Shown: piece after piece, positions 1 to 31,888 of the stretch
How positions within the stretch are numbered: the first letter of the stretch is position 1
Layout of the letters: the number at the start of each line of letters is the position of its first letter
Source of the DNA: Tetrahymena thermophila SB210
Lineage: Eukaryota > Ciliophora > Oligohymenophorea > Hymenostomatida > Tetrahymenidae
Assembly (NCBI RefSeq): GCF_000189635.1
Contig: NW_002476072.1
Coordinates: 1-34,715, forward strand
Reading direction: 5' to 3'
Length of the DNA stretch: 34,715 nt
Position numbers and translations under genes: made by a program
The notes under the pieces: model-generated
The model's database searches: none
The model's input: the letters and a program-made list of their open reading frames with translations, nothing else
What the model was told of the DNA's origin: nothing

Positions 1-47
1 TATTTTCTATTGATGATTGACTAATTTATTTATTTATTTGAAAATAG

Positions 48-970
48 TGAGTAAAATTTTAGATTGATTTTAAATAAGAAGAAAAAGAAATATTCTAAAT
101 AGGGCGTAAAGTTTCTATGTTAAATGGCACTCTAAAATAAATACTAAATTATTTTATTCGTATTATAGAGAGTATAATATTTGAATGAATGATATTTTAT
201 TAGAATATTTTAAAATATCTTCAACTTTAAAATAAGGGATTGGTAATTTTTAATTTAATTTAAGCATTTTAAAATATTAAAATAAAATTACTTAAATAGG
301 AAGAAGTAAATAAAGATCAATCTAGCTATCATCTTTTCTTAATATTATATCTGGTTTTATTAAAAATAAATAATAGACAGTAATTTTTAAATAAAATTTC
401 ATGATCTTAGCAAAATAAATGGATGAAATAATAAATTAAAATTAATAAAATAGAATGTAATAATTAGTTTTATTGAATTCTAATTCAAAAATACAAATTA
501 AAACTTAAAATAAATAGTGGGTAATCAATCTTTTTACTAAATAATATCAAATGATGTTTATTTTCGCTTTTTTTTTATAAAAGCAAGTAATAAACAAAAA
601 ATTATTTCTGGTTCTAACTTTGCAAACCACAATTTAAATTTTAAATTTAAACAGAGCGTAACTTTCATTATAAAATTTATTCTAAAAATCTCAATATTTT
701 TATTAACCAAAACAGCTAGTAAAATTCCTTGCTTTATTTAATTAGAATATCAAACATACAAACATATTTCATATTTTTAATAGCCTGTAAACATTCATAT
801 TTGTTTCTTAAAAGATTAAAAACATTTTAATTTATTATATCAATAAGCGGGTAATTTTATCATCTTATAGTAGACCTTCTTCGAATTTTTTACATCATTA
901 ATAGCAAGTTATTTTTCTAAAATTTTTATAATTATCAGATTTTTAATCAACTTTAAATTTAAAATAGACA
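48..970 (+). other. Microexons 1-15 (diverged introns)
   Basis: Exon start positions and sequences: 48 TGA; 103 GGC; 169 AGA; 237 GGATTG; 300 GAAGAA; 377 ACA; 454 AAT; 518 TGG; 584 CAA; 655 AGC; 716 CTA; 784 CCT; 848 CGG; 905 CAA; 968 ACA. The introns here share almost no internal sequence, yet each begins GTAA (GTTA at 908, GTAT at 172) and ends AG. That conservation limited to borders is what splicing would preserve and a decaying satellite would not. Exons 4 and 5 are 6 nt, still a multiple of three. The border of exon 4 (AAG before it) is the least certain. Confidence 0.7.
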
Positions 971-3398
971 GTAATTAATATTTTAGAATGATTTTGATGA
1001 GAAAATAAAAGCTGAATTAACTATCATATTCCAAATAGGATGTAATTTCTGATGTGAAAATAAATGCTGAATTAAATTTCATATTCAAATTAGCGAGTAA
1101 TTAATATTTTAGAATGATTTTTGATGAGAAATAAAATTATGAATTAACTTTCATATTCAAAATAGCATGTACTTAATATTTCAGAATGATTTTTAATGAA
1201 AAAATAAAAACTGAATTAACTTTCATATTCAAAATAGTCGGTAATTAATATTTAGAATGATTTTTAATGAGATAATAAATGCTGAATTAATTTACATATT
1301 TAAAATAGCAAGTAATTAATTAATATTTTAGAATGATCTTTGAAGTGAAAAATAAATGCTGAATTAACTTTTATATTCAAAATAGATAGTAATTAATATT
1401 TTTTGAATGATTTTTGATGAGAAAATAAATGCTGAATTAATTAACTTTCATATTCAAAATAGGACGTAACTTATATTTTAGAATGATTTTTGATGAGAAA
1501 ATAAATGTTGAATTAACTAACTTTCATATTAAATAGAACGTAATTAATATTTTTTGAATGATTTTTGATGAGAAAATAAATAATAAATTAACTAACTTTC
1601 ATATTCAAAAAAGGACGTAATTAATATTTTAGAATAATGTTTGATGGGAAAATAAATGCTGAATAACTTTCATATGAAAAAATAGGACGTAATTAATATC
1701 TTTTGAATGATTTTTGATGAGAAAATAAATGCTGAATTAATTAATTTTCATATTCAAAATAGGATGTAATTAATATTTTAGAATGAATGATTTTTTATGA
1801 GAAAATAAATGCTGAATTAACTTTTATTCTCAAAATAGCAAGTAATTAATATTTTAAAGTGATTTTTGATGAGAAAATAAATATACTGAATTAACATTTT
1901 TCATATTCAAAATAGCTAGTAATTATATTTTAGAATGATTTTTGATGAGAAAATAAATGCTGAATTAACTAACTTTCATGTTCAAAATAGATAGTAATTA
2001 ATATTTTATAATGCTTTTTGATGAGAAAATAAACGCTAAATTAATTTACTTTCATATTCAAAATAGTGGGTAATTAACATTTTTTGAATCATTTTTTATT
2101 AGAAAATAAATTCTGAATTAACTTTTATACTCAAAATAAATAGCAAGTAATTAATATTTTAGAGTGATTTTTGATGAGAAATAAATGCTGAATTAACATT
2201 CATATTCAAAATAGCAAGTAATTAATATTTTTTTAAAATGATTTTTGATGAAAAAATAAATGCTAAATTAACTCTCATATTCAAAATAGGATGTAATTAA
2301 TATTTTAGAATTATTTTTGAAGAGAAATTAAATAATGCTGAATTAACTAACTTTCTTTCTTTCACATACAAAATAGTCGGTAATTAATATTTTAGAATGA
2401 TCTTTAATGAGAAAATAAATACTGAATTTACTTTCATATTTAAAATAGCGAGTAATTAATATTTTAGAAAGATTTTGGAAAGAAAATAAATACTGAATTA
2501 TCTTTCATATTCAAAATAGATAGTAATTAATATTTTAGAATGATTTTTGATGAGAAAATAAATTATAACATTCATATTCGAAATAGCACGTAATTAATAT
2601 TTCAGAACGATTTTTGAATAAATGCTGAATTAACTTTCAATTTCGAAATAGCACGTAATTTATATTTTAGAATGATTTTTCTTAGAAAATATATGCTGAA
2701 TTAACTAACTAACTTTCATATTCAAAATAGTCGGTAATTAATATTTTAGAATGATTTTTGATAAGAAAATAAATTCTGAATTAACTTTCTTATTCAAAAT
2801 AGGGCGTAATTAATATTTTAGAATTATTTTTGATGAGAAAATAAATGCTGAATTAACTTTCATGTTAAAATTAGATAGTAATTAAATTTTTCTATTGTTT
2901 TTTGATATGAAAAAAAAATCTAAATATAAAATAGTGAGTAAAATTTAATCAGATTTGATTCCAAGAAATTAGAGAATAAAATAAACTTTTGAAAAACAGA
3001 TGGTAATTATTTGTAGAAAACAAATAAAACAGATTGAAAATAAGTTTAATTTTGAATATACAGCGAGTAATATTTAGAACAATAATTTTGATAGAGAATC
3101 TTATTAAAATGTATGTATGAAATAGATAGTAATATTTTTGAAAGATACTAATGTAGAAGTAAGAGTTAATTATTATATGAAAAAAGTGAGTAAGAATTAT
3201 CAAAATAAATTGAAAAATGTAACTAACTAATTAAAAAACTATGTTAATCCTAAACTAGATTGTAAAATATTTGAGTTATTTAAAAAGAATATTAAAAAAA
3301 TTAAAAATAATAAATAATAGATTGTAATATTTTAAATAATTAACTTTGGATGAAATACAATTCAAGAAATGAAAATATAAATTTAATTAAAATAGCTG
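48..3398 (+). CDS. Microexon-array gene (49 exons of 3 or 6 nt), 5'-truncated by window edge
   Basis: I do not recognise the product. The + strand shows 49 repeats of a 3' splice site (TAG, sometimes CAG or AAG), then 3 nt (6 nt twice), then a 5' splice site (GTAA, rarely GTTA, GTAC or GTAT). Introns between them run about 52-84 nt. Many have a branch-point-like TTAAC about 20 nt before the 3' site. All exon lengths are multiples of three. Spliced exons total 153 nt at about 43% GC, against very AT-rich introns. Codon phase is not settled. Reading the triplets themselves (phase 0) is closed by TGA in exons 1, 42 and 46. With introns after codon base 2 the product starts EAEDWKKQIGKAYL and ends NKIREYTTRAYECEYELF, then TGA if the next exon begins with A. 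With introns after base 1 it contains RRRSTNMATRFANTPLGH and stays open past exon 49. The 5' end lies outside the window. A satellite repeat is the main alternative. Confidence 0.72.
1039..2877 (+). other. Microexons 16-41 (homogeneous introns)
   Basis: Exon starts: 1039 GAT; 1094 CGA; 1166 CAT; 1238 TCG; 1309 CAA; 1386 ATA; 1463 GAC; 1537 AAC; 1614 GAC; 1686 GAC; 1763 GAT; 1839 CAA; 1916 CTA; 1991 ATA; 2067 TGG; 2144 CAA; 2215 CAA; 2290 GAT; 2377 TCG; 2449 CGA; 2520 ATA; 2587 CAC; 2652 CAC; 2731 TCG; 2803 GGC; 2875 ATA. The introns are near-copies of one unit: GTAATTAATATTTTAGAATG at the 5' end, then GATGAGAAAATAAATGCTG, then TTAACTTTCATATTCAAAATAG-like ends (given in parts). The 3-nt exons vary although the flanking introns are alike. 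Runs such as GAC, AAC, GAC, GAC, GAT and CAC, CAC fit local tandem duplication of an exon-intron unit. Confidence 0.75.
2935..3398 (+). other. Microexons 42-49 (3' end of array)
   Basis: Exon starts: 2935 TGA; 3000 ATG; 3064 CGA; 3126 ATA; 3187 TGA; 3259 ATT; 3321 ATT; 3396 CTG. Intron sequences diverge again but keep GTAA and AG borders. Downstream, a possible 36-nt exon sits at 3560-3595 (after AAAAAAG, before GTAATT), and a possible terminal exon near 3672-3780 reads SDEPHTQYLLDSGNTTQF in one frame. How the array joins these is not resolved: in the base-2 phase a next exon starting with A completes TGA after exon 49, and in the base-1 phase the 3560 exon gives TGA after a few codons. Confidence 0.6.
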
Positions 3399-4740
3399 GT
3401 AATAATTAATCCTATTCAGAAAGCAACATATTTTAAAATCTACTACTTACTTATTTATAAAGAAAGTAAAATTATTTATAAAAAAGTAAATTTTCTTACT
3501 AAACCTTTGAATAAAATAAAAAGGGTAAAAATAACACATTAAAAGATTTATCAAAAAAGAGCAAGATTAATGAATATTTATAAAAATATTACAAGGTAAT
3601 TTATTTTTACAATTTTCATTTAATTGAAAAAATTAATTTCATTAATATAAATCATTTTTTGCTATTAAAAAGTGATGAACCACATACATAATATTTACTA
3701 GATTCAGGCAACACAACACAGTTTACGAAATCAGAAATGCACTTTTTTGTTTACTTGTTGATTATAAATAAAATAATCGATTGAATTACTATTAATAAAT
3801 ATTAAAAATAATATGAATTTGTGAAATATATTTTTTTTTTCTATATTGATTGTGGCTTAAACTTTTAATTTAATTTTTTTTTTTTAACATGAAAAAAAAA
3901 CAATCAATTATTAAGATTTTATTTAATAATATTTTTTATTAAATAGATAGATAACATAACTTAGTAAACAATTATATTTAGCAATTTTTTTAAAGTGTTG
4001 ATTTATTTATATATTTTCCTTTTTTTATGGTTTAAAAAATCCAGATACTCCTAATTTTGCAAATTAAAAATTTCCATTCAAAGTATATTTGGGGTCCAAT
4101 TTCAATTTATAAGCTAAATATAGCTGCTCCTAGTTTTAAAATTCCGCTGATAGGATATATATATGTATGTATGTAATCAGCGGAATTTATAAAAAATATA
4201 TATATAAATCACTAAATAGAAATATACATATTTTTTCTTTTAATTTTTAAACCAAAATTTATCTAGCAGATAGAGATACCTTTGCTTTAAAACCAAAATT
4301 AAGAAATAAATTAATTTTTTCTAAACATTTTAAATATTTTATAAAGTAACATTTTTATTTAATCTTTACTTATGTTTTAAATAATATTAATTTCCATTAT
4401 TAATTCATCTGATTTATATCTATGAGATAGAAGCTTCACATTTTTATAATTTAATAAAACATAGTATGGCACTAGCAATTAATAAAAGCTTTGGTCGTAT
4501 TTGGTTTAGAGGAATTACTTTATTTAAGTAAATTTTTTTCTTAAATTTTGTTTTGTTTTATAAACTATTTATTTACTTACCAAATTATTATACATATAAA
4601 TATAAAAATAATAATAAATCATCTATCTATCTATATTTTAGGTTAAATTATTTGATAACAAAATATTAAAATATAAAGCATTTTATATTAAAGTATTCAA
4701 TTATATTTATATTTATTCGTCTTATTTCACTATTATTTTA
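3399..4740. other. AT-rich intergenic stretch between convergent genes
   Basis: This stretch lies between the end of the + strand microexon array and the 3' end of the - strand LRR gene. It holds the possible 3' exons of the array (3560-3595 and about 3672-3780), a 12-bp perfect inverted repeat (4139-4188) and an ATCT-type simple repeat near 4620. A short candidate first exon on the + strand at 4466-4527 reads MALAINKSFGRIWFRGITLF and ends before GTAAAT. Its continuation would overlap the LRR gene's last exon on the other strand, so I leave it as a weak candidate. Confidence 0.4.
4139..4188. repeat. 12-bp perfect inverted repeat (hairpin)
   Basis: Left arm AAATTCCGCTGA (4139-4150) and right arm TCAGCGGAATTT (4177-4188) are perfect reverse complements around a 26-nt AT-rich spacer. 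The arms are much richer in GC than the surroundings. It lies between two convergent genes. It could be a 3'-end or terminator-like hairpin, or the remains of a small inverted-repeat element. Confidence 0.6.
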
Positions 4741-7130
4741 TCACCAATATTGTATTTCTAAGGCAACTAATCTTTTTGATTTAAGGCATTTTAATTTCAA
4801 TTATTAATATCTTTTGTTTTAGTTGTTACTTTTAATATAAATTATTGTAAATTAAAAAAAATAAATACAATAAAATTTTTAAGTAAAATATTATATGTTA
4901 ACTCAATAAGTAATAAAAATTTTAGTAAAATAAGAAACAAAAGAAAAATTAATCAAATAAAAAGCTTTTAATTAAAAGAGTTAGTTATATTGTTTTTAAT
5001 TAATTTTTATATTTAAAAATACCACAATCCAAAACAAATAAACTGTATTTACTCTAGATTAAGTTTCAAATTATAGAGATTAGTGCACTTTCCTAAACCA
5101 GAACCTAAGCCTGATGCACCAATTGCGCCAATTTAATTCCACCTTTTGAAATATTGAAGAAAATAAATATAGTTCATTTGTTTTTTAGAAGGAAAAAATG
5201 ATGAAAAAATATGAAATAATAAGAAATAAATTAATTAATTTATAATAAAAACAAAAGTTGAAAATGAATAAATGAGTTAAATTAGTAATCAAACAAACAA
5301 TGAAATAAATTTAAAAAATACAACCAGAAAATAAAAAAGAAAAATAAATCAAATGAAAAGCTCATATATAAATAAATTAAAAGAGTTAGTTATATTGTTA
5401 TAATTCATGTTTATATTTAAAAATATCACAATCCAAAACAAATAAACTGATTTTACTTAAGATAAAGTGTCAAATTTGAGAGATTAGTGCTCTTTCCTAA
5501 AAAAGAGTCTAAGCTTGATGCACCTTCATCGCCAATTTAATTTTTCCTTTTTTAAATATTGAAGAAAAAATATATGTTAATTTGTAAGAAAAAATGAAGA
5601 AAAAATATGAAATAATAAGAAATGAATTAATAACAAAAGCAAAAATTGAAAATGAAAAAACAAGTTAAAATAACAATTGAACAAAGAAATAAATAAATGA
5701 AAAAACACAACTGAATAGAAAAATAATTCAAATGAAAACCTCATAATAAATAAATTTTAGTTAGCTAAATTGTTTTAAATTCATTTTTATATTCAAAAAA
5801 TATCATAATCAAAAACAAATAAACTGATTTTACGATAGATTTAGAGTCAAATTTGAGAGATTAGTGCAATTTCCTAAACCAGAACTTAAGCTCGATGCAC
5901 CTTCATCATTAATTTAATTCCAACTTTTTAAATATTATAGAAAAAATATATAGTTAGTTAGGAGGAAAAAATGAAGAAAAAATACGAAATAATAAGAAAT
6001 TAAAAAATATAAGCATAAAAAAAAGTAAAGAAAAAGAAATCAAATGAAAAGCTAATAAATAAATAAAAAGAGTTAGTTAAAACAAATAAACTATTATACT
6101 TTTTTTAATCATGGAGACAAGGAGAGTTGTAAAATTTTTTTCATATTTTTCTTCATTTACAGGGTCGATATGCTAATTATGAAAAACAAAAAATAAATTG
6201 GATAACTCTCCTCGTTTCAAACATAAAAAAAAGTCCTATATTTTTACCCTAGATCGAGTGTCAAATTTGAGAGATTAGTGCATTTTCCTAAACCAAAACC
6301 TAAGCCTAATGCACCAATTGCACCAATTTCATTTAGCCTTTTAAATATTGAAAAAAAATAAAGAGTTAATTTGTTAGTTAGAAGGAAAAAATAAAGAAAA
6401 AATATGCAATATTAAGAAGTTAATTAATAATGAAAGCAAAAGTTGAAAATGAAAAAATGAATTAAATTAAAAATCAAAAATAATTAAATGAAAAAACACA
6501 AGCAGAATAAAAAAAGAAAAAGAAATCAAATGAAAAGCAAATAAATAAATTAAAAGAGTTAGTTAGTTATATTGTTTTAAATTCATTTTTATATTCAAAA
6601 ATATCATAATCCAAAACAAATAAACTATTTTTACCCTAGATTGAGTGTCAAATTTGAGAGATTAGTGAACTTTCCTAAACCAAAACCTAAGCTTAATGTA
6701 CCTTTATCACCAATTTAATTCCCCCTTTTTAAATATTGAACAAAAAATATAAAGCTAATTTGTTAGTTAGAATGAAAAAATGAAGAAAAAATATGAAGTA
6801 ATAAGAAATGAATTAATTAATAATAAAAGTAAAAGTTGAAAATGAAGAAACAAGTTAAATTAACAATCAAACAAAGAAATAAATAAATGAAAAAAAACAA
6901 GTAGAATAAAAAAAAAGAAAAATAAATCAAATGAAATAAAAACCTAATAAATAAATTAAAAGAGTTAGCTAGTTATATTGTTTTAAATTCATTTTTATAT
7001 TCAAAAATATCACAACCTAAAACAAATAAACTTATTTTACTCAAGATAAAGTATCAAATTTGAGAGATTAGAGCACTTTCCTAAACCAGAACCTAAACTT
7101 GATGCACCTTCATCACCAATTAACTATCTC
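4741..7130 (-). CDS. Leucine-rich-repeat protein, one repeat per exon, 5' end not found
   Basis: Exons in transcript order: 7041-7130, 6635-6724, 6248-6337, 5834-5923, 5457-5546, 5053-5142 (each exactly 90 nt), then 4741-4810 ending in TGA. Each 90-nt exon has 1 nt + 29 codons + 2 nt, so all introns are phase 2 and exons are interchangeable in frame. Each encodes one 30-residue LRR of the form N-x-IGDEGASSLGSGLGKCTN, then LSNLTLDL. The terminal exon reads KCLKSKRLVALEIQYW. Five introns between the repeat exons are 287-324 nt and alike, so the unit that multiplied was exon plus intron, with a period of about 377-414 bp. The last intron is 242 nt. LRR proteins usually bind other proteins. The most upstream exon (7130) follows an intron, but I could not find a start exon before gene A, so this may be a partial gene or pseudogene. 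Confidence 0.72.
6094..6240. mobile_element. Small inverted-repeat insertion in an LRR intron (MITE-like)
   Basis: Compared with the equivalent intron before the 6635 exon, this intron is interrupted between AAACAAATAAACTAT and TTTTTACCCTAGAT-like sequence by about 147 bp. The ends are imperfect inverted repeats of about 35 bp: ACAAGGAGAGTT inside the left arm pairs with AACTCTCCTCGT in the right. Runs of T (left) and A (right) lie outside this core. No coding capacity is visible. A short CTAT/CTATA at both edges may be a target duplication. This fits a non-autonomous foldback or MITE element. The same intron also lacks about 50 bp present in its paralogues. Confidence 0.55.
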
Positions 7131-8414
7131 CTTTTTAAATATTCAAGAAAAAATATATTGTTAATTTGTTACTAAGAAGGAGAAAATGAAGATTAAAAAT
7201 AAAATAAAAAAATTAAATTAAATTAAATTAAAATAATTAAAATAAATTGTATAAATAAAATTGAATGAATTTAGTTGATAATTTAAATTTGAAAAATAAT
7301 ACAATCAATATATTAAAATTAGTAAATAAAGCGTTAATAATAATAATATTAATAAACCAGACATACTAATTATTTAGATCTATATAGAGAACCTAAAACG
7401 ATTAAAGTGAAGTGTCTAAAAACTTTTGTTATTAATAGAAATAAATTGCATTAACATTAATAAAAAGTAAATATTTACTTCTTCTAAATTGTTAAAATAT
7501 TTTTTCTATCCTATCATTTATTTTTTTTTCTTATCAAAAATATTTAATTACAATTTATAGAAATTAATTAACTTTATATCAAATTAATTTGGACAAAAAA
7601 CAAATAAATATTTATAAATTTTCTTTTAGATGTAGAAATCCCAAAAAATTTAAATTTAATGTAACATTAACTATTTAATCTTAATATTTCTATAAAAAAT
7701 TGTACTTATAAAGATAGCAATAATCAAAGATTTCCATTTCATATGTTGATAAAATTCTATTAATTAATTTCATTTAATTTTGATAAAATAATTTTAATCT
7801 TTATATTTTTATGTTTGTTTTAGTTGAGGTAAATTTTAATATATAATAAAATAGATTTTTAAAATTATAATATTTATAATATGCCTAATTATTCTTAAAT
7901 CCTATTAGTTATTTTTAAAAAACATGTTATTTAGGTATATATCATAAATACTCTTATTAAAGCTGACCAAAAATTCTATTATCAATAAATTTAGTCTGCT
8001 TATTTTTATATAGTATATTAATTTTATTTTTTTGCTTATCGATGAATTAAATTCTAGCATCACAGTGTCTGAAAGAAATTAATTCTTGGAAATGCTATAT
8101 ATATATAAATATATATTTGGATATTCATACCTTAAAAATTCCTTAGTATTATATTTATAATGTATTATTTTATTCTGTAAAATAGACAATCTATAAATTC
8201 GTATTTCAAAATTTTATTTCCTTTAAGAAAAAGGATTTAATTTGCTTATTTAAAATATTTTTATTTATGAGAACAATGAGTAAGTAGATTACTTTTATGT
8301 TGAAGGAGTAATAAATTAGTAATTATAAAATTTAATCTCTATCTTTGATCGTTTCAAAGCTTAAAAAGCTTCTTAAAGTTTAATTATCCTTTAAAGATAA
8401 ATCATTATTTGTTG
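7131..8414. other. AT-rich stretch, expected 5' side of the LRR gene
   Basis: The first LRR exon found needs at least one upstream exon here or further right, but I see no LRR-like reading frame or clear start. The stretch is mostly A/T runs. A frame near 7330-7430 on the + strand is open to TGA but short and unconvincing. Confidence 0.3.
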
Positions 8415-8981
8415 ATGAATGTAAGTTTTACTTAACTCTATGAGTGAAAATAAATTAATAAATAAGCATATATAACTTGTGCCTAAAAGGGTTAGGTTCA
8501 GAAGACTGTTTGGCTGGCTGGTTATTTAGTACTGTGTGGTTAAAAACAAATCCTGAATAAATTCAAATTAATCGATAGTTTAATTCAATATGACACTATT
8601 GAAAGCTCTTTCAATAGCGATGTTTAAATAGCAGTAGAAAATACTAGTTAACTTATTATCTAAAATGGAATTGTTTTGCTAGCTTCTTCCTTGGTTTCAC
8701 TTAATAGAATAGAAAAAAATAAAGATATATAAGCAAAGTAATAATTGGCTAAGTTATTGATGTACTTAACTATTTATCAAAATTAGATTTATTTTAAGTT
8801 TAAAAGAGTTAAATTGAATAATCAAGCTAAATAATAGAATATGAATAATTAAAATTTAAACATTTTAAATATTTAGAAATTCAATCAAATAACCAATTTA
8901 ACATTGTTAAAAATTAATAATTTTAATTTTCTAAACTCTAAAAAATCCAAATTGAAAATCAATTTGTAAAAACAACAATGA
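8415..8981 (+). CDS. Candidate gene, unresolved (GC-elevated segment 8480-8720)
   Basis: I do not recognise this. GC rises to roughly one third between 8480 and 8720, against well under 20% around it. The + strand frame is open under the ciliate code from 8448 to TGA at 8979-8981. A possible start ATG-AAT at 8415 is followed directly by GTAAGT and a 69-nt intron ending in AAAAG at 8489, which joins in phase 0. Part of the product would read GYLVLCGQKQILNKFKLIDS and, later, IVLLASSLVSLNRIEKNKD. The last third is low-complexity (Asn/Gln/Leu) and may not be coding. The - strand also has a short open frame here, so the strand is uncertain. Confidence 0.3.
8596..8617. repeat. Short perfect inverted repeat
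   Basis: CTATTGAAAG and CTTTCAATAG are exact reverse complements separated by 2 nt. They lie inside the GC-elevated candidate coding segment. They could be a binding site or a chance palindrome. Confidence 0.4.
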
Positions 8982-9274
8982 TTATCTATAATATTCTAGA
9001 ATTAATTTTTTTAGACTCTGAAAAATAAAATTTGACATATTATAACGTGGATTTTTTTTTAAATTCACTCTTATGCGCCTAATTAATTAATTTCCTTGAT
9101 AGCGAATATTATTTTTAATAAATTAAAATTTTACTTTATTTTATAAAAAAAATATATTTATACTATTATCAAATAAATCTTTTGCCATTATTTTTTGAAT
9201 ATAAATAGACAAGATATTATTTATTATAAATAGGAATTTAGAATAGAAAATATATACATTACTATAAATTATAA

Positions 9275-11119
9275 TCACTTTAATTAATTTAATAAATTAC
9301 TTTATGTTTCTAGCTTATATTCTAAAAGTGGGAAATCATATTCACTTTATAGTTAAATTTAAAATATATTATTAGGATTTTTTTAAGATTAGAGTGTTAT
9401 TATTCTTTTTTAAATATCCATTTTTAAAAATATTACAGCTTCATTTTTATTTCCAGTAATAAATTAATTTGATTCATTTGTAAAGAGAGTTATTTAATTA
9501 TTATTAATCAGCAATTTTCCCTTTATTTATTATTTAATTATTCTTTCATTTAATTATTAATAATTATAATATTAAATGATTAATTATTATCTTGTGATAA
9601 TTTAGAATTTTCTTTAATAAATACATTCTAAAATTTATTACTGTGTTAAGAATTTAGGAAATGATTACAATTTTTAAAATAAATGATTGGAGGAAGAGCA
9701 TTTATCAACTTTTTAAAAACATTCAAAATAAACTGAATAAATTCTTATCTATGATTTAACTTTATATTTAATTTGAATTAGTTTTTAATAACAAGCGAGC
9801 ATATTTCTGAGTCATTTGTATCAAGAATTATTTCATTTATTTCTGCTATTAAGAATCTTTTTACATCTGAAGAGCTATTTAAATTTGGCAAAACATAAAA
9901 ATAGTTTTGAGTCAAGCAAATAATTCTTTATTATGATTCACCAGAATTAGATAATTTTACAGCTTATTCACTAAAATATGCATTATAACTATATTTTTAA
10001 TCCTTTTATTCTTTTTAAAGTAAATTTAAAATGAATTAGTTGTCTTTTACTCTATAGAAATCAAAATCCAGCTCTAAGAAGTTTAAATCATTATAGAATT
10101 CTTAACCTAATTTTAAAAGAAAAGCTATCAATAAATAATTTATATAATTTACTGAATTAAATATTCATAAATTATCATAATTATTTACCATAATTTGGTT
10201 TTTCAAGAGTTTTTGACTTTTTGAGAATTGATTTTTTTGGTATTGTTTCAATTTACAATTTCTGCATTTTACACTCAAACCCTTTATAGCATCAAAATTT
10301 ATTTAGTTTTGTAAATAAAATAAATAAGAAATAAGTTACCTGGATCACTTTACACTTTTTTTATTTAAATTTATATATTTTCTTTTGATTTTGTATTACT
10401 TTCTTTCTGTTCGTCTAGAATTTTTAAAAAATGAAATTTATTAGAAATTAGATTTATTCATTAATGTTAAAATAAATTTTCTTCTTTTTTAATATTGATT
10501 TAAAAATAATTTTAAAGTTTAAAATTAATTACAATATTTTCCAAGGTCTTAATAAAATGAAACACTTTTTTTTGTTTAAATATACTAGTGCTTATTCTAA
10601 AGAATTAAATTTTTTTATTGCAAAGAATGGCTTTAAGTGTTTTAGCTTGAGCAATCAGTTTATATTTCATCTGTTTCTGTCAAATAATTTTCATTTAAAT
10701 TGGTAATATCTTCTAAAAAATACAATAAAAAAATAATTATTAATTGAAAAAATATTTTAATTTATAAAATATGAATACCTTCAAAAGCGGGATCACATTT
10801 TGTTTCTGTTTTTGTATTATTGAGTTCATCTTAACTTCTTAATTCTTAAGCAGTGATATTTGAGAAACTTATTGTATTGACTAATTTATTAATTTTTTAA
10901 GATAAATCTTTGATTTTTTCATTTAGATCTTTCTCAGAAATCTTGTTTTAACTAAAAAGAGATATTTTTTTAAAGAAAAAGAATAATTTGAATTTACTTA
11001 TTATTTATTTTGATTTGTTAGATTTACAATTCAATTTAATCAACCAATTGAGATAACATTTTAAAATTTTCTAATATATTTTGTATTATTAAATTATTTT
11101 CGCCTGTTTACATAATCAT
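9275..11119 (-). pseudogene. Three-copy family, member A (frameshifted five-exon gene)
   Basis: I do not recognise this family. Exons: 10998-11119, 10779-10951, 10533-10712, 10189-10281, 9275-10106. Introns have GT-AG ends with lengths 46, 66, 251 and 82 nt. Intron phases are 2,1,1,1, the same as in copies B (21512-23604) and C (29527-31888). Exon 1 is a coiled-coil-like segment containing LSQLVDQIELQIQQIK; exon 4 carries the family signature KKSILKKSKT; exon 5 holds a conserved domain with RIICLTQNYFYVLP and ends near QLQSEYDFPLL. In exon 5 the frame is broken: reading on from the conserved part gives TGA at 9508-9510, while the homologous C-terminal half continues one base out of frame, open to TGA at 9275-9277. 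The exon is one base short of the length the frame needs. This is a recent lesion or a sequencing error. Copy A is the most diverged of the three. Confidence 0.7.
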
Positions 11120-15462: not shown

Positions 15463-17847
15463 AAATCTCCGTAGTATAGAAAAAAATTAATTTTTTTAGA
15501 TTTTATTCTTAATTTGGTTAATTGTAAAAATCTTCTGAAAGTAAATCACTTATTTTTCTATAAAATTTTAAATAAAGTGTTTAAAGGTTTATTGGAACAT
15601 AAAATTAATTAATAAATGCCATTTTAATTTTTAATTATCCTAAATGATAAAAATTATTTAAAATAGTTTATTTTTTAGAAATAGATATCTCGAAGTATTA
15701 ATTGTTACTATCAAAATGTAATAATTGCTTTATTGTATCTATATATAAAACAAGTAGAGATTTCAAAAATCATTAATTTTTATACAATATTTATTTAACA
15801 AGTGCTATTTGATTGATTAAAACCATGAATTTAATTTAATAAACTCGAATTTTAATCAAAAATTGCATTTCTTGGTTCTAGATCATTAACTTATTATTGA
15901 AGTGTTTTTTCCATTAATTTAAGTAACTAGGAATTTATATAATAACTTAACTTCCTTATCTAAGGAAAAATAAGTATATCATAATTTAAACACCTTTTTA
16001 CATAAAAAAATATTTTCATACATAAAGAAAATAGAGTCTAAAATTTAGCAGTAAAACTTAATCTCGAATATTTTTTTATCTAAAAATTAGTATGATATGT
16101 ATTATTAAATAAAAAATATTACTTATTAAATTAACATCAATTATTGAAAAATGTTACAATCCATTATTTTGTTTGTTTTTTTAGGTTATAAATTGTTTAT
16201 TGTTTTCAAAATATAATTTCATAACTATAATAACTAATTAATACAGACCATATAATTTTTAGTTTGAAACAGAATTTAATAGTTAATTCTAAAATGACGA
16301 AATATTGATCTAATAAATTTTATCTAATAATCTTTTAAAACTTTCTTTTGATATAAAATCTAAAAATAATATTATTTTATTATCTATCAATTCTTTCAAT
16401 TATACTTATCATCTCTAATTAAACTCATATTCTTAAATATTTGAGGCTTATAATTAAATAGTTTTATTAATGTATGCAGATTAATTTTATTACTAAAATT
16501 ATATTTTTCTATAAATAAAATTATAATTTAAGATAATTTATTATAAAGCTGGTTAAATTTTTCTAAATGAAGAAAAATTAGTTTTGGTTTATAAAAAATA
16601 CACTATTCCAAATTGAAATTCTCCATGCTTTATATAGTTAGACATTTTTACTCAAAATATTAAAGAATAAAAAAATAAAATAAAAAAAAATAATAAAACT
16701 AAAACTTTAAGTAAAATATGAATAAATTGATCCTTTTGAGTATTATCATGCTCATGCCTCTCTGTTTGGCTCAAAATATAAGTGTAGAAAAACTTCTTGC
16801 TTATAATAAATGGTCAAGCTAACATCAAAGAGTTTATCTGAATGAAGATGAAAAACTATTTAGACAAATGGTTTTCTTTGAGAACTTGTAAAAGATTTAG
16901 GAACATAACAGTGATCCTAATAACACCTATTCTATCAATTTAAACTAATTCTCAGATATGACTAAAGAAGAATTTGCTGAAAAAATTCTTATGAAATCCG
17001 ATTTTGTTGACCATTTAATGAAAGGAATCAGTTAAGAGACAACTCATAATGATGCTAATAAAGAAACTTAGTTCAATTCAAAAGGCGTTTCTTATGCTTA
17101 TTCAATAGACTGGAGAACAAAAGGTGCTGTAACATCGGTTAAGGATTAAGGTAGTTGTGGTTCATGCTGGAGTTTCTCTGCAGCTGGAGTAATGGAGTCA
17201 TATAACTTCATTAGAAACAAAGCTGCTTTAGTTGATTTTTCTGAGTAATAACTTGTTGATTGTGTCATCCCTGCAAATGGTTACAACTCTTATGGATGTG
17301 GTGGAGGATGGCCTGCTTCTTGTCTGGATTATGCCTCCAAAGTAGGTATTACTACCCTAGACAAGTATCCCTATGTTGCAGTTTAGAATAATTGTAATGT
17401 GACTGATACAAATAATGGCTTTAAGCCTAAAAACTGGATTTAAGTTGCTAACACGCCTGATGACTTAAAAATGGCTTTGAATTGGACTCCTGTTTCTGTA
17501 GTTGTTGATGCTTCCAATTGGGGTAGTTATTACTCTGGAATTTTCAACGGATGTGATTAATCTCATATTAGTCTTAATCATGCTGTGTTAGCTGTTGGTT
17601 ATGACTTACAAGGAAACTGGATTCTTAAAAATTCTTGGAGCGCCTATTGGGGTGAGAATGGCTATATGAGACTTGCTGCTAACAACACATGCGGTATCTT
17701 AAGCTATAATTATTTAGTTACTGCTTGAAAAATCTGGATAATCTATTATAATTAAAATATAATATTCGTATAAACTATTATTTTATATAAAATTGTAATT
17801 CAAATATTAAGATTCGATTAGTTTTAAAAACAAAAATTTATTTAAAT
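15463..17847 (+). repeat. Direct repeat, first copy (protease segment)
   Basis: This segment aligns colinearly with 18703-21094, with starts 3240 bp apart. It covers about 1.25 kb upstream of the protease start, the whole gene and about 120 bp after the stop. The non-coding flanks differ by several percent including indels. The CDS differs at only 22 of 1011 bases. Confidence 0.85.
16718..17728 (+). CDS. Cathepsin-L-like cysteine protease, copy 1
   Basis: Papain-family (C1A) protease precursor, 336 aa, a normal length. Residues 1-18 form a signal peptide, so it is secretory, vacuolar or lysosomal. Residues about 24-90 are the I29 inhibitor propeptide with a perfect ERFNIN pattern (E45, R49, F53, N56, I60, N64), which marks the cathepsin L type. 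The mature enzyme starts near [11 protein letters not shown] (128). The active site is complete: Q144 (codon TAA), C150 in GSCGSCW, H288 in LNHAV, N305 in KNSW. The GCxGG motif is at 193-197. It stops at TGA. Two conserved glycines are altered: the propeptide GxNxFxD motif begins with N74, and NSWG is NSWS (S308). The A-rich leader before ATG is typical of ciliates. It forms a tandem pair with 19965-20975. Confidence 0.95.
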
Positions 17848-18702: not shown

Positions 18703-21093
<2,391 letters not shown>

Positions 21094-21511: not shown

Positions 21512-23604
21512 TCATTTAATTGTTAATTATTATTTACTGAAAAATTCTAAGTGAATTCCTAATAAAGGAAAGTCATATTCGCTTTGTAATTAAATATTAA
21601 ATATTTTGTTAGGGATATCTAAAGATTAAAATTAAAGTATCCTCGCTTCAGTATCTTTTTTTAAATATTTAACTTAGTGACTTTCTTCTAAATTATTATT
21701 CTCAGATAATTAAATGATAATTTAGTCATTATTAATCAATAAAACGCCATTAGATTTTTGATTATTATTTAATAAATTTGTATGATCATTTAAAATAAAA
21801 ATTTTATAATATTAGTTTTTGTTCTTAGAGATTGAGGATTTTGTTACTATTGGGGATTTACTATATTTATTTTAAGGATTTAATTAGGGAGACTAAGCTT
21901 ATTTATATTGAATCTTTGGCTAAAGAGCATTTAAATAGTTCTTGAATACTCTGAAAATATAATCTACAAACTCTTTTCTATGACTTATTATCAAATTCAA
22001 TTAGAACTCATTTTTAATAACCATTGAACACTTTTGTTTTTCATCAACATCAATAATTATTTGATTAATATCTTTAATTAAAAACTTTTTAAAGTTATCA
22101 TCATTAATTTTTTAAGGAAAAACATAGAAGAAATTTTGAGTCATGCAAATTATCTTCAATTCTTACTTGCCAGACTTTGATAATTTAGTGACTGATTCAC
22201 TATAAAAGTAATTTTCTTTATTCTTTGAATTAATTTATTCGCTTTATATCAAATTGTTAATGAGTTCATGATTTCTTAATTCGCAATAATCTGTATCTGC
22301 CATACTTGTATCTGATAATTGTATATCTTCATCTGGACTTATTTCTAATTTATAAATAATAAAATAATTGAAATAAATTTAATTAAATCCTTTATAAATT
22401 TCAAAAGATACTTCATAATACTTTAATAATATTTTTCAAAAAACTCTTGTAACAAAATTAATTCTGAAGTGTTTGATTTAATGTTGTAAATATTATTTAA
22501 AATGAAAATATTGTCATTGTTTTAAAGGGGGGGGGTAGANNNNNNNNNNNNNNNNNNNNNNNNNNNNNNNNNNNNNNNNNNNNNNNNNNNNNNNNNNNNN
22601 NNNNNNNNNNNNNNNNNNNNNNNNNNNNNNNNNNNNNNNAAATATTATTTAAAGGTTAAGTTTTTTTCTATTTGGTTTTATAAAATATTTACAATTAGCA
22701 AAAAATTCTTGTGTTTTAGATTTTTTAAGAATTGACTTTGTTTATTTCAAGTTTTTCTCAATTTTGTTTAGATTAGACTTTGAACCTGTTTATTAGTAAA
22801 ATTAAAAATCATTCAAAATTTATAAGAATTAAAAATTTAATTTTTTACTTTCTTTCTCTTCAGCTTCAAAATTATACTAAAACTAAACACTTTTTTGTTA
22901 TTTAAGTTTAGAATTCTTCTGTGGAGATGCAATATTTTCTAATTTCTGAGGACTTTAACATAAAGGAGTTTTCTACCCATGTCCTAATTCATTCAATTTA
23001 CTGTCTAAAATTTATTATTATTTTATAAATTGTGATTATTTAAAAAGAAATATTGTATTTATAGTCAAGTAAGTTGAAAAAGTAATAAATATTTAATACT
23101 AATTAAAATATTTTTGCAAATAAGAGATAGAATTTTTCAATAAAATTAAACATGATAAATAAACAAAATAAATTAGAAAAATTTATTAATTGTAAAATAT
23201 TTTAGAAAAAATATCATATAAATATATACCTATTGATGATAATGTTTTAATTTAACTTTATTCAAGTGTTCGTTCTTTTTTGATATCAATTTAAATGTCT
23301 TTTTATCCATTTTTAGATTGCTAATCAGCGCTATGTTCTTAATTTAACTAACTGATCATCATTTCAATTTTTTGAGAAATTTCTTGTAAAAATTTGGTTA
23401 TACAGTTTTTTGATCCTTTGTATTATCTAATAACATAGAAAGAAAGATATGTTTAAAATGATTATCATTTAAATACTTTTACATGCTATCTTTCTCAATT
23501 TATTTAATTTAACTGCCAATTTTGTCTAAAATTTGAGACAATTCTTTGAAGGTATCCTATATAATTTACAAGTCTATGTTGTTTTAAATTGAATCTAGAG
23601 TCAT
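21512..23604 (-). CDS. Three-copy family, member B (five exons, intact frame)
   Basis: I do not recognise this family. Exons: 23483-23604, 23230-23426, 22849-23004, 22693-22785, 21512-22344. Introns are 56, 225, 63 and 347 nt, all GT-AG, phases 2,1,1,1; the last contains the assembly gap. Total 1401 nt, 466 aa. Exon 1 gives a coiled-coil-like N-terminus (LSQILDKIGSQIKQIEKD). Exon 3 has the conserved QKSVQF. Exon 4 (93 nt in all copies) has TKSILKKSKT. Residues about 236-325 contain KSGKQELKIICMTQNFFYVF and end in an FVDYIFRVFKNYL helix. Alternating strands closed by a helix suggest a PH-like or myosin-TH1-like fold (inference, weak). The C-terminus has QLQSEYDFPLL. No signal peptide or membrane span is seen, so it is probably cytoplasmic. 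It is closest to copy C. Confidence 0.75.
22540..22639. other. Assembly gap (100 N)
   Basis: Exactly 100 N, a default size for a gap of unknown length. A run of nine G precedes it, foreign to this AT-rich DNA and probably a low-quality read end. It lies in intron 4 of family member B, so no coding sequence need be missing. Confidence 0.95.
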
Positions 23605-29526: not shown

Positions 29527-31888
29527 TCATTTAATTGTTAACTATTATTTACTGAAATATTCTAAATGTTTTGCTAATAAAGGAAAGTCATATTCACTTT
29601 GTAATTAGATATTAAATATTTCGTATGGGCTATCTAAAGATTAAAATTAAAGTATCCTCGCCTCAACATCTTTTTTTAAATATTTAACTTAAAGATTGAC
29701 TTCTATGCTGAAACTATCCTTAGAAAATTAAATAAAATTTTAATCATTATTAATCAATAAAATGCCATTAGATTTTTTATTATTGTTAATCAAATTTGTA
29801 TGGTCTTTTAAAATAAAAATTTTATAATATTAGTTTTTGTCCTTAAAGATTGAGCATTTTGTAACGATTTGGGGTTTACTATTTTTATTTTAAGGATTTA
29901 ATTAGGGCTACTAAGCTTATTTGTATAGAATCTTTGGCTAAAGAGTATTTAAATAGTTCTTAAAAACTCTGAAAATGTAATCTAAAAATTCATTTCGATG
30001 ACTAATTATCAAATTCAATTAGAATTCATTTTTAATAACGATTGAACACTTTTGTTTTTCATTAACATCAATAATTATATCATTAATATCTTTCATTAAA
30101 AACTTTTTAACGTTATCATTATTAATTTTTTAAGGAAAAACATAGAAAAAATTTTAGGTCATGCAAATTATCTTCAATTCTTACTTTCCAGACTTTGATA
30201 ATTTAGTAACTGATTCACTATAAAAGTAATTTTCTTTATTCTTTGAATTAATTTATTCACTTTATATCAAATTTTTAATGAATTCGTGATTTCTTAATTC
30301 ACAATAATCTGTATCTGCCATATTTGTATTAAAAAATTTTTAATCTTCAACTGGACTTATTTCTAATTTATAAATAATAAAATAATTAAAATAAATTAAA
30401 GTAATTCCTTTAAAAATTTATAAATTATATAATGATTTAAAATTGATTTAATAAATAAATAAATTATACATATTTTAATTTTTACAAAAATCCACCCTTC
30501 AAAATTTTGAAATGTTTGATTATATTGTTGCGTTTATTTATAAAATTAACTTACTAGAAGGGGTAGAGAAGGGGATCTAAAAGGAAAGAGTTTGCAGTAA
30601 GTTAGTAAGTAAAAATTATTTTGATATGTAATATCGAAAAAAAAATTTGAATTAATCTTAAATATGTTTACCATGATCAAATTTATCTAGAGTTTTAGAT
30701 TTTTTAAGTATCGATTTTGTTTATTCGACTTTACACTTTAGACTATTAATTGAATGCATTGAACCTATTTTTTATTAAAAGGGAGAATAAAATATTAGAT
30801 CACCTATTTTTAATAACTAATTACTATTGTAATTAAAATATTTTATCATTTAATTCTCGTCATCATTCTCTTCTTTTTATCTACTGTCATCAAATATGTC
30901 TTTTTATTTTATTTATATATAAATAAATACTATTTAAATGAAAATAAAAAAATATATTGTAATTATTAAAAAAAATGTAAGAGCAAAATTGTTTAGCAAA
31001 ATTAATCACATATTTTGTTTGTTATTTTGACTATATTTTAAATTATTTACTCAGATCAATATTTATAAAATAAAATGTAATATTTTTATGATTAATGATT
31101 TACTTTTTTCTTGAATGCTAAACTAGAATGTAACACTTTTTTACAATTTAAGATTTGAACATTATATTATTTAAAAGGGATGGTCTATATTCTGAGGACT
31201 TTGTTTATTAATTGATTTTTCTGTTTCTTCTTTTATATTAAAATTAAATTTATTAATTTTTTAATCAATAAAATTAATAATTCATTTTGTTAGCTTCAGT
31301 TATTAAATTTACAAAAAATCAAATAAAATAAATAAGGTAGTATAATCTATTAAATTGAAATTTAAAAATTTATATAAATAAATGCAGATAATTAAATAAA
31401 TCTAAAAACAAACTTTAAAAGATGAGAATTAGGATAATAATTCACTCTCTTTAAAAATATCAATGAAAAAAGTATAACAAATTAGATTGTAATTTCAATT
31501 TCACCTTACCCTGAAACAAGCTTTTTTATTTTTTTTCAAAAATTGATCCTTTTTTTATATTGGTGCAAAATTATGTTTCTTAGCTTTTAATTTTTTAATC
31601 CTTGAGATTATGGGAATTTAATGATCTAGCAATCTTTTCAATTTTCTAATTCAGCATTTAGACATGTTTCACAATAGCGTTTTCTGACTTTTTGTATTAC
31701 CTAATAAAAAGTAAAACAATTAAGTTGAAAATATTTTTAGATAGAAAATGATTTATTTATTCTTACTCGTTATCTAATTTGATTTATTAGATTTGCTATT
31801 CAATTTTGTCAATAAATTGAGACAATCCACTCAAATCATTAATTAAAACTTAAATATTAGCTTTATTATCAAGAGTTTCTGCAGACAT
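29527..31888 (-). CDS. Three-copy family, member C (five exons, intact frame)
   Basis: I do not recognise this family. Exons: 31767-31888, 31510-31700, 31104-31229, 30672-30764, 29527-30362. Introns are 66, 280, 339 and 309 nt, phases 2,1,1,1. Total 1368 nt, 455 aa. Exon 1 (122 nt in all copies) begins MSAETLDNKANIQVLINDLS and contains IDKIEQQIQQIK. Exon 3 has LQKSVTFQF. Exon 4 (93 nt) has TKSILKKSKT. Exon 5 matches copy B closely over its whole length, from about CELRNHEFIKNLIQSEQINS to QLQSEYDFPLL. The same possible PH-like or TH1-like segment is present. Exons 2 and 3 vary in length and sequence between copies, while exons 1, 4 and 5 are constrained. Copies B and C share 3' flanks, so C and B are the more recent duplication. 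Confidence 0.75.

Follow-up and report, generated by a model that had tools for sequence, protein, structure and literature searches.

Can a protein-coding sequence be divided almost codon by codon, with single triplets lying as exons between successive introns? This question is raised by the left end of contig NW_002476072.1 of Tetrahymena thermophila SB210 (assembly GCF_000189635.1), of which we analysed positions 1-34,715 of the forward strand (hereafter the window, the whole stretch of 34,715 nt). A first-pass annotation had described here a run of 49 exon-like units, 3 nt long except for two of 6 nt, which keep the reading frame, and had attributed it to selection on splicing. As judged by the sequence comparisons below, this array very probably belongs to a family of T. 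thermophila genes that are divided in this manner.

The count was reproduced: window positions 48-3398 contain 47 units of 3 nt and two of 6 nt, 153 nt in total. Such a series far exceeds chance. In window 1-3420 there are 46 copies of the motif AG-N3-GTA, where 500 dinucleotide shuffles gave 1.34 on average and never more than 6; the stricter TAG-N3-GTAA is present 36 times (shuffled mean 0.20, maximum 3). When the spacing L in TAG-N{L}-GTAA was scanned without bias from 0 to 30, L=3 gave 36 occurrences and every other length at most 1; over 23 array segments (79,349 bases) the corresponding values were 791 and at most 21. Exceptions to the TAG acceptor in the window array are AAG at 584, 848 and 1614, and exceptions to the GTAA donor are GTATA at 169 and GTTA at 905. 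The model derived for the window comprises 50 exons (48-3465, plus strand), 48 of 3 nt and two of 6 nt. A chain finder requiring at least 8 units detected no second array on either strand of the window, which was scanned together with segments L009-L028.

The genome assembly searched (101 Mb, 445 contigs) looks macronuclear; C4A2 repeats were found at both ends of contig C4, among the matches listed (for such a periodic pattern the reversed control is uninformative). Its TERT is identical to PDB 6d6v_A, the T. thermophila TERT, across 189 aligned residues, save for 21 extra residues in the query that are taken to be an unspliced intron. Searching it with the array DNA revealed at least 58 places on 23 contigs, the window's own and 22 others, and a pattern of three units in a row matched 533 times genome-wide (209+324), with no match (0+0) for the reversed control pattern. 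Eighteen gene models were constructed using hand-set weights for splice sites and exon lengths limited to multiples of 3. These weights replaced a splice-site matrix trained on the 72-nt consensus, which missed real exons with other borders. Chains running through normal sequence with spurious exons, in part of lengths other than multiples of 3 (C26, C29 and the second chains of C320 and C205), were split or dropped beforehand. Outside the 18 models stand C118, C422, C29 at 2150, the second arrays of C205 and C320 and segments L041/L042; C9, C161, C266, C116, C415 and several others were not among the arrays modelled.

In these models a codon consists of exon bases 2 and 3 plus base 1 of the next exon (phase-2 introns), with TAA and TAG read as Gln. 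The predicted proteins share a common layout. They begin with MKGFI and a variable segment, often continue with DINKKxIGYIKxEDW, and then have MIFYExxDWKKQIGKAYLGK, which a hypervariable segment separates from the final YECEYEL[F/L/N] and the stop. The core MIFYExxDWKKQIGKAYLG is recognisable in 10 models. Introns split both the start codon (AT/G) and the stop codon (TG/A). Models with both ends have 76 codons (C50), 74 (C205) and 91 (C320), and near-complete ones 66-96 exons with predicted lengths of 3-18 nt, nearly all 3 nt. An in-frame TGA is met in 13 of the 18 models, in 12 of them after the conserved EL[FLN]/QLF end; in the thirteenth (C274) it is internal and disappears once an 18-nt exon is included. 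The five remaining models end short of the 3' end, without TGA. A start exon with ATG was found at 8 of 12 5' ends (C26b, C50, two in C205, C29, C56, C294 and C320). The C320 array, oriented 2824-9506 (L016/L017), gives a 96-exon model whose product keeps the MKGFI start and an ECEYELN end without the middle core, and is strongly hydrophobic with stretches that resemble membrane helices by eye. The relatives carry the 5' part which is missing from the window at its left edge, in agreement with the earlier suggestion that the gene is larger than the array seen. A fiftieth unit, AAA at 3463-3465, completes the stop codon.

Is the proposed frame under coding constraint? The figure of 0 TGA in 997 codons is circular, the models having been cut at the first TGA, and the coding claim rests on a permutation test. 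With the last 6 exons excluded, one in-frame TGA was observed (C274) against 12.2 upon permuting 3-nt exons within models, and none of 2000 permutations was as low; the other split frame had 44 against 47.6 in the same test. For the hypervariable blocks alone the values were 0 observed and 3.55 permuted (P 0.013). The remaining two frames of the family accumulate TGA. Homologous exons were then compared between paralogs, paired by flanking introns and order only (59 of 66 model pairs used, the rest offering fewer than 24 usable nt). Differences at exon bases 1, 2 and 3 were 0.204, 0.163 and 0.119, that is at codon positions 3, 1 and 2 of the proposed frame. The ratio of nonsynonymous to synonymous differences (pN/pS) was 0.65 in this frame and 1.42 and 0.72 in the other two, and codon-usage log-odds were -0.235 against -0.448 and -0.492 (TGA scored).

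Taken together, the conserved frame, the split start and stop codons, the avoidance of TGA and the order 3>1>2 of codon positions indicate a gene family of single-codon exons instead of a satellite. The proposal that serial 3-nt exons are under splicing selection gains from the same comparisons, at the level of sequence: a length of 3 is unique in the unbiased scan, borders and frame persist in paralogous arrays whose introns have diverged, the arrays specify one conserved protein family, and TGA is clearly avoided in one frame alone.

Several observations weigh against this interpretation. Splicing of tens of consecutive 3-nt exons is, to our knowledge, without precedent. The start exon or its ATG is missing or changed at 4 of the 12 5' ends (C26a, C195b, C274 and C422), so that part of the family may be decayed, and some gaps of 100-600 nt remain in the models, representing missed exons or longer introns. 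No homologue was found among about 5.8 billion predicted proteins in one word-based search with the C50 product, no Pfam family, LRR (leucine-rich repeat) included, scored above the cut-off for four products, and no intronless copy was found in the genome by a search without positive control. The third frame is also somewhat poor in TGA in the hypervariable blocks (13 against 18.2, P 0.055); its pN/pS is close to that of the proposed frame, the pairwise counts being non-independent, and a hand-typed alignment of the core gave synonymous fractions of 0.206 in the proposed and 0.228 in the third frame. Finally, identity is lower for exons than for introns in 50 of the 59 pairs (pooled identity 0.838 against 0.904, the intron value being somewhat inflated since gaps were left out and alignments score-filtered), which is unexpected for a merely conserved protein. 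In close pairs pN exceeds pS, with for example 10 to 0 changes in C26b/C440. Positive selection is not claimed, given the pooled pN/pS and the fact that synonymous sites, too, differ more in exons than introns do. One engineered protein in the PDB matched weakly (E 0.0012), which was attributed to chance.

How did the introns come to lie between these codons? At a looser cut, an intron of one repeat type accompanies 446 of 865 single-codon units; 27 blocks contain 418 of these and 28 lie outside. These units concentrate in the two variable segments; core introns are mostly unique and are shared, in the same order, by paralogs. In eight arrays taken one by one, introns are 82-95% identical within the array (up to 99% in the youngest blocks), against 27-41% for the exon columns, where about 29% is expected by chance; the three exon columns hold entropy ranks 1-3 in seven of the eight, and ranks 1, 2 and 8 in C274. 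Relative to a 69-nt master sequence, block means range from 0.33 to 7.0 substitutions per intron. In block 1 of C287, 16 of 20 introns have no substitution, most with a 4-nt insertion (73 nt), and the 20 adjoining codons are of 9 kinds. Each of the 27 blocks finds its closest relative among the three youngest blocks (C287.1, C440.2 and C26b.2), and this relative is no more distant from it than its own introns are from one another, a star-like divergence from one master. In a survey of exact copies of the master, all 54 lie on contigs that also match the array. Intron lengths in several arrays (971-2874 of the window and relatives) step by 4 nt (69, 73, 77), apparently through TAAC/TTAA repeats inside the intron.

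One explanation, to which we give slightly less than an even chance, is that gene conversion or unequal exchange keeps the introns of the hypervariable parts alike while selection keeps or diversifies the codons, with no new intron gain. Introns at block edges have diverged further (5.04 substitutions) than inner ones (3.06), the edge value being the larger in 24 of 27 blocks, as expected under unequal exchange. Identical triplets reach 0.084 in the youngest and 0.060 in the oldest blocks where chance would give 0.046, and some short codon runs are repeated, TCG TGG TTG for instance occurring twice in C440. Triplet identity between neighbours goes from 0.32 at distance 1 to 0.285 at distance 10; identical triplets within six units amount to 0.072-0.099 against 0.045 by chance, and 21 triplet pairs are repeated against 11.8 after shuffling (maximum 25). 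However, piecemeal conversion should mix ages, and the inner introns of one array look equally old, with a variance-to-mean ratio of 1.16 within arrays and 2.37 when arrays are pooled. Moreover, in the four youngest blocks, with fewer than one substitution per intron, codons are base by base no more alike (0.277) than chance (0.291). An excess of identical triplets and pairs among otherwise unlike codons implies some block duplication, but the codons did not travel with most of the introns when these were copied. Each array behaves, in sequence terms, as if it had a single time of birth. We raise, tentatively and as a possibility rather than a probability, that copies of a fixed 69-nt master intron may have been inserted in one burst, either separating successive codons of a coding sequence or arriving along with new ones. 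Whole hypervariable segments would then arise codon by codon on clonal introns. This would be a new way of gaining introns and of diversifying proteins, operating in several families of the same genome with different masters.

The identity of the gene itself admits another reading. Directly upstream of the arrays, at many loci, lies a repeated open reading frame (ORF) that encodes a protein kinase domain (Pfam E 3e-22) and, by eye, a coiled-coil-like stretch; its end has 22 matches. The frame after the kinase stop is that of the micro-exon ORF, and the array could be spliced and yet form the C-terminal tail of the kinase gene, through fusion or stop readthrough. The junction TGA is indeed absent from C29 and C294, which have TTA, and replaced in C320, but it is kept in 7 of 10 loci, C29 and C294 each have another TGA before it, and the split ATG found at most 5' ends points to an independent start. 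We regard such a tail as unlikely, though deserving some weight; in the case of the 5'-truncated window gene, the region concerned lies outside the window sequence. An early idea of a 34-nt intron inside the kinase ORF was dropped.

It is less probable again, and in our estimation improbable, that a true single-codon-exon gene existed only in the past and that most copies, perhaps the window's among them, have since become pseudogenes without expression, close to the ends of chromosomes or contigs. Decay of this kind is suggested by the four altered 5' ends, by the kinase frame, interrupted before its stop at several loci (C26a, C50, C422 and others), and by the many arrays on short contigs or at contig ends. 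Against it, the hypervariable blocks too are free of in-frame TGA, and the oldest arrays are open (C320 with 91 codons, C133 with 74), as are the window's 50 codons.

A satellite with splice-like borders by chance and no gene, to which the repeat of about 72 nt reported by Tandem Repeats Finder over much of 991-2917 might point, is very improbable: the frame, stop and codon-position tests speak against a non-coding reading, the repetition is confined to the middle, the flanks (before 968 and after 2877) retain the borders and the 3-nt spacing with introns that are mostly of other sequence, and the exon columns, although the most variable, jointly encode a conserved frame. The first-pass statement that the array is not a satellite consequently holds for the codons and fails for the introns of the array middle, which are tandem repeats.

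Under the favoured reading of a gene family with single-codon exons, transcription of the somatic gene would yield a pre-mRNA with 3-nt exons set between introns that mostly measure about 50-77 nt. Through intron definition the spliceosome would recognise these introns one by one, remove about 65-95 of them per transcript and join the triplets in order. With phase-2 introns, the start AT/G, the stop TG/A and nearly every codon would be completed only through splicing, and translation would yield a product that combines constant cores and two hypervariable segments in about 74-91 residues. All units share one phase and hold one codon each; when one is gained, lost or skipped, a single residue is affected and the frame stays intact, so that length and sequence can change fast. 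The function is perhaps self/non-self or partner recognition, but this is a guess.

The window gene, truncated at its 5' side by the contig edge, spans 48-3465 on the plus strand and its predicted product, with the ciliate code, reads EAEDWKKQIGKAYLGKQIDIRKQTTTTINQYGNKIREYTTRAYECEYELF followed by the stop. Its constant core, 14 exons at 48-907 (+) with product EAEDWKKQIGKAYLGK, has mostly unique introns that paralogs share in the same order; the exons are TGA at 48, GGC at 103, AGA at 169, GGATTG at 237, GAAGAA at 300, ACA at 377, AAT at 454, TGG at 518, CAA at 584, AGC at 655, CTA at 716, CCT at 784, CGG at 848 and CAA at 905. The hypervariable segment (968-2805, +) follows with 26 consecutive 3-nt exons, whose codons are unrelated to those beside neighbouring intron copies and which start at 968, 1039, 1094, 1166, 1238, 1309, 1386, 1463, 1537, 1614, 1686, 1763, 1839, 1916, 1991, 2067, 2144, 2215, 2290, 2377, 2449, 2520, 2587, 2652, 2731 and 2803. 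Across 971-2874 (+) lie 26 introns derived from the one 69-nt master; at a looser cut the intron at 2878-2934 is a twenty-seventh, and these 27 differ from the master by a mean of 3.96 substitutions each (variance/mean 0.79). The constant C-terminal core (2875-3398, +) has nine exons, ATA at 2875, TGA at 2935, ATG at 3000, CGA at 3064, ATA at 3126, TGA at 3187, ATT at 3259, ATT at 3321 and CTG at 3396, and gives YECEYELF. The first base of the last micro-exon of the model (AAA, 3463-3465, +) completes the stop begun at 3397-3398. Predicted joined strings of micro-exons are, for example, GGATTGGAAGAAACAAATTGGCAAAGCCTACCTCGGCAA and, for the 3' end, ATATGAATGCGAATATGAATTATTCTGA.

Arrays of other sequence were also found in the genome. 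A version of the three-unit pattern with shorter introns matched 109 times (control 0; about 100 places listed) and revealed arrays of other intron families on C415 and C116, with short runs on C138, C182, C262 and others. The repeated introns of C415 and C116 start with GTAATATTTTTGAATC / GTAATATTTTTGAATGG, which suggests that clonal introns come in more than one family. On C4 (456.6-457.5 kb; L041 1134-1950), about 15 units with unlike introns include GDWRM, which resembles the core EDWRM (read by hand), and on C262 (L042 72-840) 13 units in a row, with introns unlike by eye, are open in phase 0 only, as EKMNEKGAFYAAI; both arrays are isolated ones on large contigs. The architecture is therefore not confined to the family of the window gene.

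Elsewhere in the window, six repeats spaced by 377-414 nt occupy 5000-7230 on the minus strand, adjoining the micro-exon array on the opposite strand; their frames read like LRR units (IGDEGASSLGSGLGKCTNLSNLTL) and resemble the Tetrahymena LRR genes with 90-bp exons. Two tandem, very similar genes of papain-family cysteine proteases with an I29 propeptide lie on the plus strand at 16571-17728 and 19686-20975. Three minus-strand ORFs (21512-22435, 29527-30498 and 9508-10164), related by eye, two of them with MADTDYCELRNHE, would form a local gene family.

Such genes would be missed by ordinary annotation and read mapping. A 2012 T. thermophila RNA-seq study demanded, in its mapping step for multi-junction reads, that a junction be flanked by 8 bp or more on both sides (PMC3274533); that step is unable to detect 3-nt exons. 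We found no report of 3-nt exon arrays in Tetrahymena in the open-access literature, as covered by titles and the beginnings of abstracts (bioRxiv and most subscription papers being outside this coverage). If these genes are expressed, none known to us is more finely divided: in a classic model organism, 74-91 codons would be separated by about 65-95 introns. One could then study, in a natural setting, how small an exon may be, how splicing proceeds by intron definition alone at a spacing of 3 nt, and how faithful it is. Fine-scale intron gain is made directly testable in living strains by the presence of clonal introns among codons that are unrelated.

How does the family compare with known systems? 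Introners are near-identical introns which arise in large numbers from one source and are dispersed over many genes. The arrays share with them near-identical introns and star-like divergence from one source, but differ in that the exact master copies, within the survey described above, keep to array-matching contigs. Unlike a coding minisatellite, they encode no repeated peptide, the exon columns being far less alike than the introns. Schistosome micro-exon genes (MEGs) are coded mainly by many short symmetric exons of at most 36 bp, single ones of which can be dropped without frame shift (PMC8293314). The family likewise has most of its predicted coding sequence in symmetric exons of no more than 36 bp, and differs from MEGs by exons nearly all of 3 nt, up to 96 per model, by its clonal introns and by its occurrence in a ciliate. 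Aphid bicycle genes have many small internal exons of one phase, about 17 on average, and fast-evolving proteins (PMC9168663); the Tetrahymena genes are also a family with many small one-phase exons and fast-evolving predicted proteins, but their exons hold single codons and number 66-96 in near-complete models. Tetrahymena LRR genes consist of arrays of 90-bp exons with phase-2 introns (PMC6564038), and from these the micro-exon genes differ in having 3-nt exons, codons which do not repeat with the introns and no Pfam LRR in four products. Isolated microexons of 1-3 nt, such as that of APC11 in Arabidopsis, where a 1-nt exon is described, show that the spliceosome can join exons this small (PMC4674806); there one tiny exon lies between normal ones, in contrast to the dozens in series here. 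On sequence grounds our working type is an extreme micro-exon gene; arrays in which clonal introns separate unrelated codons would, if confirmed, be new in kind.

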